From Halorubrum hochsteinianum (GTDB lineage: Archaea; Halobacteriota; Halobacteria; Halobacteriales; Haloferacaceae), in the NCBI RefSeq assembly GCF_023702125.1, contig NZ_CP098415.1, forward strand, positions 558,001 through 622,000: DNA of 64,000 bases, in the 5' to 3' direction. A program made the position numbers and the translations under genes. Numbering within the stretch: the stretch's first letter is position 1; every line of letters begins with the position of its first letter. Of this stretch, positions 47,247 to 49,250 are shown piece after piece. Under the pieces are notes generated by a model. That model saw nothing but the letters and a program-made list of their open reading frames with translations, was not told the DNA's origin and searched no databases.

Positions 47247-47732
47247 ATGAGTCTGAATCCACGACGATACGACGTACGAGAACTGCGCCGGATCGCGGAC
47301 GCGCCGCGAACCGACGGAGCGGGAGCGCCTCGGGAGCGGGCGCTCCGGCAGCCGAACCGGAACCGGGCCGAGCAGGCGGCGCGCTCGGCCGCGTTCACGG
47401 AGCTGCTCCAGCGTCAGCGTGGGAAGCGGCTGAACGGCGGCGGGACCGCGGATCGACCGTATCTGACGGCGATCCCGGCGTCGCCCGCGGCGGAACGCGA
47501 GATCGGCGAGTGGCTCGGCTACCTCGTCGACGTCGGCGGCCACGTGCGGGCCCGGGACGCGCTCGCCTACTACGGCGAACTCGACTGGGTCGGCGATGAC
47601 GCGGTCGCGGCGCTGCGGCGGCGTCTGGAGGGGTTCGACGCCCCCCGACGGGACCGGCCGTTCAGCCCCGCGGACCACCGGATCAGTCTCGTCTCCATCG
47701 TCCGGATCGCTTCGTGTGCGAGTGACCAATGA
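47247..47732 (+). CDS. FlaD/E-domain small protein coupled to an actin homologue
   Basis: A 161-residue protein. A basic, Arg-rich N-terminal about 65 residues leads into a FlaD/E-type domain at about 71-131: PYLTAIPASPAAEREIGEWL, GYLVDVGG, ALAYYGELDWVGDDAV, LEGF. FlaD/E domains are known from archaellum motor-scaffold proteins and related haloarchaeal proteins. The TGA overlaps the ATG of the actin-like gene (ATGA), so both are translated together. A TATA-like CTATGATA near 47192 implies a short leader. No other archaellum gene is in the window. Confidence 0.75.
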   Translation: MSLNPRRYDVRELRRIADAPRTDGAGAPRERALRQPNRNRAEQAARSAAFTELLQRQRGKRLNGGGTADRPYLTAIPASPAAEREIGEWLGYLVDVGGHVRARDALAYYGELDWVGDDAVAALRRRLEGFDAPRRDRPFSPADHRISLVSIVRIASCASDQ

Positions 47733-48781
47733 GCGACGACGAATCCACGGACATCAACGACACGGACGAATCGGCAGCGGTCGGCGTGAAACTGGGCAGC
47801 ACCCGAACGGTACTCGACGTCCCCGACGGACGGGGCGGCCGCGAGCGCCACTCGGTGCTGACCTGCCTGGCGACCTACGAGGACGCCATCACCGGCGAGG
47901 AGAAGGTGCTGTTCGGCGAGGAGGCCGCGGTCGAGTACCCGGACCGCGTGCGCTTCATGCTCCGGTCGGGACTCCCCGAGGACGACGACAGCGTGGCGGA
48001 CGCCGAGCGCTTCTTCGAGGCGGTCGTCGACGCCCACGACGTGCCCGAGGACAGCGCGGTCGTCTACGCGGTCCCCACCATCGACAACGAGGCGGGCGTC
48101 GAGAACCTCAAGTCGGTGATCGAGGGCTCCTCGATCGGCCAGATCGAGACGCGTAGCTACCCCGAGTCGCTGTGCGGGGCGATCCCCGCGTACGGCGACG
48201 AACTCGACGCGATAGACGAGGTGTTCGTCTCGATCAACCTCGGCTCGACGACGATGGAGGCGTGCGCCTACCGGCGCGGCGAGCAGCTCTCGCCGTTCTC
48301 GACCGGCTCGGTGACGGGCAACGAGGTCGACCGCCGCATCGTCGCCGCCGTCGAGGAGGAGAGTCAGGGCCGCGTTCACATCGACCGGACGACCGCCCGG
48401 GAGTACAAGGAGCAGCACGCCGACGTGTACGACTTCGAGCCGTTCACGGACGTGATCCAACAGCCCGGCGGCGGGAGCCACGAGTTCACCGTCGACCGCG
48501 GCGTGCGCGAGCCGGTCGACCGCTACATCGACGAGGCGGTCGACGTCGTCGCCAACGAGTTCCTCCCCGAACTCGCGAACGACCACCTGAAGCCCTACCA
48601 GCTGGCGCTGGGCCGCCCCATCGCCGCCACCGGCGGCATGGCGTGTATCCCCGGACTGACCGAGGAGTTCGAAGAGCGGCTCAGCGACGAACTCGACCGC
48701 GACGTCGAGGTCGTCTCGCCCGACGACCCCGCGACCGCGGCCGCGGAGGGCGCGGCGCGCATCGCGGAGCGACTGGTCTGA
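47729..48781 (+). CDS. Salactin-like haloarchaeal actin homologue
   Basis: A 350-residue actin/Hsp70-fold ATPase. Phosphate loop 1 is AVGVKLGSTRTVLDV, phosphate loop 2 is VFVSINLGSTTMEACAYRRG, and the adenosine motif region is IAATGGMACIPGLTEEF. An acidic N-terminal tail precedes the fold. It matches my memory of salactin, a dynamically unstable filament protein of Halobacterium salinarum, more than MreB or crenactin. It is translationally coupled to the FlaD/E-domain gene. A T6 tract about 22 bases after the stop may end the transcript. Confidence 0.82.
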   Translation: MSDDESTDINDTDESAAVGVKLGSTRTVLDVPDGRGGRERHSVLTCLATYEDAITGEEKVLFGEEAAVEYPDRVRFMLRSGLPEDDDSVADAERFFEAVVDAHDVPEDSAVVYAVPTIDNEAGVENLKSVIEGSSIGQIETRSYPESLCGAIPAYGDELDAIDEVFVSINLGSTTMEACAYRRGEQLSPFSTGSVTGNEVDRRIVAAVEEESQGRVHIDRTTAREYKEQHADVYDFEPFTDVIQQPGGGSHEFTVDRGVREPVDRYIDEAVDVVANEFLPELANDHLKPYQLALGRPIAATGGMACIPGLTEEFEERLSDELDRDVEVVSPDDPATAAAEGAARIAERLV

Positions 48782-48842
48782 GCGGCGAGCGAACGCTTCG
48801 ACTTTTTTCGATCGGTAGACATCCGTGAGCGGCCGCGACGTT

Positions 48843-49250
48843 CGGTTATAAACAGCGGTGCGGTCGGCGCGTGCCTGCGAGCGCCCACCGGGCGCGAGCA
48901 GCACGCGCGAGGGAGTCGGTGGTCCGGAGCGAAGCGGAGGACCACCGACGAGGCTGGGGAGGTGTGAGGTGCTGTGGCGGGCGGGACTCGAAGGGGCAGT
49001 CGCGAGGGCGAAGCACGGCGAAGTAAGCACTGGAGGGAGCGAACGAAGTGAGCGACCGAAGCGCGCAGCGAGCCGCGCGAGTCCTCGCGACTGGGGCTTC
49101 GGTGGTGTTCGTGTCGATTCCCTGTTTATAAACAGTAGTCACGTACGGCCGAGCGACTGGGGCTTCGGTGGTGTTCGTATCGATCGGCGATTTATCAGAG
49201 GCAACCGCGTACGGCCGAGCGCCTTGGGCTTCGACGGTCGTGGTCGTAGC
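48843..49250 (+). repeat. Dispersed haloarchaeal repeat element, copy B
   Basis: It fills most of the gene-free stretch 48782-49316. It is the inverted counterpart of 11566-11908, with long shared blocks. It begins near TTATAAACAGCGGTGCGGTC and continues through the conserved GAGGCTGGGGAGGTGTGAGG and GGGGCTTCGGTGGTGTTCGT. From 49087 on it repeats a 66-base module. The first 60 bases of the gap hold the T-tract after the actin gene. I see no supported gene here. Confidence 0.88.
49087..49250. repeat. 66-base degenerate tandem module at the end of repeat copy B
   Basis: Modules start at 49087, 49153 and 49219 (GCGACTGGGGCTTCG, GCGACTGGGGCTTCG, GCGCCTTGGGCTTCG). The first two continue with GTGTTCGTRTCGAT, a TTTAT(A) stretch and CGTACGGCCGA; the third is diverged and incomplete. 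Confidence 0.85.

Follow-up and report, generated by a model that had tools for sequence, protein, structure and literature searches.

The stretch of DNA examined here, hereafter the window, comprises 64,000 nucleotides of the Halorubrum hochsteinianum genome, in which a small gene encoding a domain typical of archaellum motor proteins runs directly into a gene for an actin homologue. This raises the question as to what a component of the motility apparatus has to do with a dynamic cytoskeletal filament, and whether the two genes are found together by more than chance.

The gene pair in the window

The pair consists of two open reading frames on the forward strand (Table 1). An earlier note on this DNA had described a FlaD/E-domain gene overlapping a salactin-type actin gene by ATGA, and both the reading frames and the Pfam searches bear this out. 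The FlaD/E similarity of the first protein is real by HMM (PF04659, Arch_fla_DE, E 2e-16), and the second protein is a true salactin as opposed to merely a salactin-like one, since it scores 588.9 bits (3e-177) against PF25229 and 571 bits against the NCBIfam equivalog NF053533, for which the cut-off is 400. The note had also called the upstream product a small basic protein with no archaellum gene nearby; this holds for the window, where the protein has a pI of 10.2 and the archaellum (arl) locus is about 0.8 Mb away, but neither is a general trait, as most orthologues outside the Halorubrum clade are acidic (pI about 4-5) and in Haloferax and other relatives the pair lies within an arl/che cluster.

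Table 1. Features of the arlD-salactin pair and its surroundings (positions in the window)
Feature	Position	Strand	Basis
Very probable arlD orthologue (archaellum switch/motor protein), 161 aa, first gene of the pair	47247..47732	+	PF04659; N-terminal signature; tree; own arl locus without another ArlD
N-terminal ArlD signature LNPRRYDVRELR, residues 3-14	47253..47288	+	signature-pattern counts; invariant residues
FlaD/E domain, residues 69-155, predicted helical bundle	47451..47711	+	PF04659; AlphaFold
ATGA stop/start overlap (translational coupling)	47729..47732	+	read from the sequence
Salactin, dynamically unstable actin homologue, 350 aa, with acidic disordered N-terminal tail (residues 1-13 low confidence)	47729..48781	+	PF25229; NF053533; AlphaFold
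T6 run, 22 bases 3' of the salactin stop, possible end of a bicistronic transcript	48803..48808	+	read directly

The closest named relative of the window salactin is that of H. sodomense (97% identical). Its AlphaFold model (pLDDT 88.7) has an actin fold with MreB and MamK among the best PDB matches (1e-20 to 5e-19); a sequence search found no solved relatives, and no salactin was found in the viral contigs searched. It shares the equivalog family, the actin fold and the acidic disordered N-terminal tail with the salactin of H. salinarum, the filaments of which extend from foci at the poles and retract to them, this being the only species in which dynamic instability from the poles has been shown (PMC10746226). 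The H. salinarum gene was reported near DNA replication and repair genes, with poor synteny (PMC10746226), whereas the window salactin is paired with arlD. Downstream of the pair, at 49090-49190, a repeated non-coding stretch (GCGACTGGGGCTTCGGTGGTGTTCGT.TCGAT) was spotted by eye.

Identity of the small protein

PF04659 is the sole Pfam domain of the small protein, and the FlaC domain which marks ArlCE is absent from it. The genome contains two FlaD/E genes, the one in the window and the arlCE of its archaellum locus, the product of which carries both domains (FlaC_arch 1.7e-21, FlaD/E 1.3e-23). That locus, at about 1,391,000-1,409,000 of contig C1, has the order archaellins, che genes, cheD, arlCE, arlF, arlG, (arlH), arlI and arlJ, several of these names being assigned by inspection only, and no ArlD was found in it when FlaD/E genes were searched for genome-wide. 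One ArlD and one ArlCE form the usual complement in most genomes, and in most the salactin-linked gene is the sole one of ArlD type.

The N-terminus is equally characteristic. A signature, LNPRRYDVRELR in the window protein and LNPREYDPEELR in the genus g23, contains four residues (P5, D9, L13 and R14) that are invariant among 30 ArlDs, and the corresponding pattern matches 73/76 salactin-linked proteins and all four ArlDs encoded in arl loci, compared to none of the 32 ArlCEs; at least two of the three salactin-linked misses have the variant RPSDYDPKELR. In a tree of 93 rows and about 100 columns nearly all ArlCE domains fall on one side of a branch with modest split support (84/88), and on the opposite side are found the arl-locus ArlDs along with most of the proteins linked to salactin and many ArlD-type proteins that are not. 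Among the exceptions grouping with ArlCE are L214, L075 and proteins not linked to salactin, several of which come from genomes lacking it. AlphaFold predicts the helical FlaD/E domain confidently (pLDDT 84-97, residues 71-160) and leaves the N-terminal half weakly ordered; neither a PDB fold search (E<=0.001) nor a sequence search returned a solved relative.

The upstream gene can thus be assigned with high confidence as arlD, encoding an archaellum switch protein. In domain, signature and size its product resembles the ArlD of the switch complex ArlCDE; it differs in being encoded outside the arl operon, in its coupling to salactin and, in Halorubrum, in being basic. Location in that operon was not taken as defining for ArlD because the position of arlD varies among haloarchaea, being beside arlCE in g23 and g50, in the che/arl cluster in Haloferax and elsewhere in others. 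In H. volcanii, ArlD-GFP is found at the pole, and cells need arlD for motility and archaellation (PMC6509185).

Conservation of the pair

A sample of 244 genomes of the class was surveyed, 115 of which have a salactin above cut-off. In 96/115 of these genomes, and in 23 of the 27 genera, arlD is immediately 5' of salactin on the same strand; the ATGA overlap itself is found in 26/115, all but one of them (25) Halorubrum. In a survey of named loci, which shares species with the first and is thus not independent of it, arlD precedes salactin in 76/80, and of the four exceptions two are truncated at the end of a contig and another is the second salactin of H. mucosum (L219), where a FlaD/E paralogue instead comes after the gene. 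When neighbours within 10 kb were clustered, no other gene was comparably kept across genera. Given this and the counts above, the recurrence of the pair exceeds chance, and arlD and salactin almost certainly constitute a conserved operon. The expectation that a FlaD/E homologue would be found beside salactin in other haloarchaea is therefore confirmed for most of them.

Less regular arrangements also occur. The two genes remain adjacent in divergent (G165) and convergent (G110) order and are about 5 kb apart in G161; they are truly separate in g23, g50, parts of g34, g41 and g47, and in G180 of g53. Neither was found in G108, in which the flanking genes are on different contigs. In g23, apparently Halobacterium judging from the layout of its arl locus, a 156-aa ArlD directly precedes ArlCE in the arl operon and salactin is elsewhere, so that the comparison with Halobacterium, which had been suggested as a check, was mostly negative. 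Near salactin, Haloferax has another FlaD/E paralogue, the N-terminus of which is ArlD-like (L071:7539-8090, L064:7510-7959 and L219:11122-11583).

Motility context and co-occurrence

Haloferax has the series cheY, cheC, cheD, arlD and salactin, and genes for archaellin and ArlCE are close by; the layout is similar in Halogeometricum limi and others. The genome G117 places salactin inside the arl operon, which reads cheC, cheD, arlCE, arlF, arlG, salactin, arlCE, arlH, salactin, arlCE, arlH, arlI (ArlI, ArlH, CheC and CheD named by phmmer, arlF and arlG by inspection). The tandem duplication at this locus (L077, contig C5) is interleaved, with three copies of arlCE beside two each of salactin and arlH.

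A different neighbourhood was found in 19 named Haloarcula-type loci, where arlD and a ParA-family gene are divergent neighbours, the latter followed in 18 by a CheW-domain gene (e.g., L205:7248-8222 and L213:8218-9123). In Vibrio, ParC and ParP likewise combine a ParA-family ATPase gene with a CheW-domain gene (PMC5706961), and the Haloarcula genes are a candidate archaeal counterpart of this polar chemosensory tether; the likeness is one of domain content only, and in the window no such genes lie beside the pair.

Salactin and the archaellum also co-occur. A FlaD/E gene is present in 115/115 genomes with salactin vs 78/129 without (Fisher 2e-17, with relatedness ignored), and archaellin in 114/115. 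The remaining genome, G183, has kept salactin with a diverged FlaD/E neighbour while archaellins were undetected; it has three full-length salactins (L066, L067 and L068) to the one diverged neighbour. Within the salactin-bearing genera of the family to which H. hochsteinianum belongs, salactin is absent from 3/3 archaellum-less genomes (G207, G013 and G184, which represent three genera; two are drafts at 93-94% completeness) vs 3/68 archaellated ones (Fisher 3.5e-4). Conversely, many archaellated haloarchaea, such as those of family f4, are without salactin. ArlD does not need salactin, as both G211 and G220 keep ArlD without it. In G211, a Halorubrum, salactin is cleanly gone between ArlD and the next gene (L295:284-1325); a contig end as the cause was rejected, since ArlD and both flanking genes are on one contig, and if the assembly is right this is a natural salactin-minus strain. 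Haloarchaeal salactin thus goes with ArlD, and ArlD is independent of salactin.

Possible function of the pairing

The salactin paper does not give a polar anchor in its discussion (PMC10746226), and the operon with arlD names a concrete candidate. The polar location of ArlD and that of salactin are each known, albeit from two different species (PMC6509185; PMC10746226), and ArlCDE surrounds the motor and may touch the polar cap (PMC8978795). We propose that ArlD, within the ArlCDE/polar-cap complex, would serve as the docking or nucleation site of salactin at the pole, with coupled translation supplying the two proteins together. Salactin could then carry force, or information on position, between the motile pole and the inside of the cell, e.g., chromosomes or newly forming archaella. 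The chances of the joint reading, in which an arlD outside the arl operon is in an operon with salactin and its product docks or nucleates the filament at the pole, appear evenly balanced; that ArlD is the polar anchor of salactin is plausible, if slightly short of that balance. We infer a physical contact between the two proteins, the anchoring and the direction in which the function runs.

In favour of the anchor, the pair is conserved and in some genera sits among che/arl genes or, in Haloarcula-type loci, next to ParA and CheW-domain genes; salactin also stays near a FlaD/E gene in several arrangements (5', divergent, convergent, reversed, and between arlG and arlCE/arlH in G117), and the dependence is asymmetric, in that ArlD exists without salactin but the salactin of surveyed haloarchaea never without a FlaD/E gene. 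Against it, a salactin mutant of H. salinarum swims normally (PMC10746226), the genes are unlinked in g23, salactin occurs without FlaD/E outside the haloarchaea, and G183 has no detectable archaellins. The normal swimming of the mutant and its DNA-distribution defect in low phosphate (PMC10746226) would nevertheless fit the proposal if the archaellum base anchors and the DNA or interior is the load. The link between cytoskeleton and archaellum machinery raised in the earlier note is strengthened by the ArlD identity, the pairs in motility clusters and the presence of FlaD/E in every salactin genome of the haloarchaea surveyed. A wider version, which we regard as somewhat unlikely, would make the polar archaellum base a general polar organising centre at which ArlD nucleates or captures salactin, such that the motor and the chromosome/cell-pole cytoskeleton form one physically linked system, in the manner of a centrosome or basal body, which joins the cilium to the cytoskeleton.

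The service could also run in the opposite direction, with salactin placing, separating or handing on polar motor and chemosensory complexes at division and ArlD acting as the cargo handle. Pairs within arl/che clusters, the ParA and CheW-domain genes beside the pair in relatives of Haloarcula, the small mobile ArlD foci which travel between the poles of H. volcanii (PMC6509185) and the missing salactin of the three archaellum-less genomes (65/3 vs 0/3, p=3.5e-4) would all suit such a role. However, we consider it unlikely, albeit a live rival, given the unimpaired motility of the H. salinarum mutant (PMC10746226), the many archaellated haloarchaea without salactin, and the fact that in H. volcanii the placing of archaella is already accounted for by MinD2 and MinD4 (PMC11588486). 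Mere co-expression of two proteins that are both needed in motile rod-stage cells, from a shared promoter and without physical contact, is likewise a live rival, if a rather unlikely one: a single conserved operon would suffice to explain the coupling and arlD and HVO_1202 respond jointly in a csmR mutant (PMC13286277), but the proximity survives divergent, convergent, reversed and arlCE-linked arrangements, and arlD is outside the arl operon in most genomes, although it would be most readily regulated together with the motor from within.

That the salactin-linked protein is instead a paralogue which arose from ArlD, has left the archaellum and is now dedicated to salactin (e.g., in DNA segregation), is very unlikely. 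The FlaD/E paralogues which Haloferax has beside its main gene, the pair without archaellins in G183 and the DNA-distribution phenotype of salactin (PMC10746226) could be read in this way; yet the linked gene is the only ArlD-type gene in most genomes, in Haloferax it is in the motility cluster, and the H. volcanii arlD, listed with HVO_1202 (PMC13286277), is needed for swimming (PMC6509185). A DNA-binding adaptor, another role considered in the earlier note, is not supported as a general idea, as the basic charge of the N-terminal part is for the most part a trait of the Halorubrum clade; a Pfam search found no DNA-binding domain in the small protein. In ParM/ParR-type segregation operons a small adaptor gene accompanies a dynamically unstable actin. 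The arlD-salactin operon has the same composition but differs in that its small partner is an archaellum protein in which no DNA-binding domain was found.

Both protein families were already known; the conserved operon and the implied connection of salactin with the archaellum were not found in the open-licence papers searched, though subscription journals may mention them. Work on H. salinarum would have missed the pair, because what is apparently its genus is among the few in which it is split. A paper from 2026 gives ArlD/HVO_1202 as a transcription unit of the H. volcanii motility region (PMC13286277), the only mention of HVO_1202 in the open-licence papers searched, and by locus tag only. 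Together with the Haloferax synteny, this unit name suggests that the little-studied HVO_1202 encodes salactin and shares an operon with the motor marker ArlD of a model organism, and the question is therefore approachable with existing strains.

Salactin outside the haloarchaea

Elsewhere in the phylum, in families that are probably relatives of Archaeoglobi and Methanocella, salactin is not beside FlaD/E, and the genomes G260, G274 and G355 have salactin without any FlaD/E gene, from which it follows that the core activity of salactin is independent of ArlD. An ancestral archaellum link is thus unsupported, and it is most simply seen as a haloarchaeal development on an older filament for which ParA/MinD partners recur. 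The recurring operon in these families consists of salactin, a coiled-coil protein and a ParA/MinD ATPase, and was seen in L256, L257, L262, L263, L265 and L266 (non-halophilic families f15 and f35); the coiled-coil protein is about 170-245 aa, with a weak FlaC-like score among many coiled-coil matches. In family f19, probably Methanocella, a prepilin-peptidase-like gene is directly downstream of salactin (L252:10070-10888, Arc_PepC_II 3.5e-29, and L254:8609-9403), and the gene directly upstream encodes a protein of about 700 aa that begins with what resembles a signal peptide. In one non-halophile (L256:4718-9475) genes for a T2SSE ATPase and a T2SSF membrane protein, of type IV pilus-like kind, are found with a pilin-like gene directly upstream of salactin.
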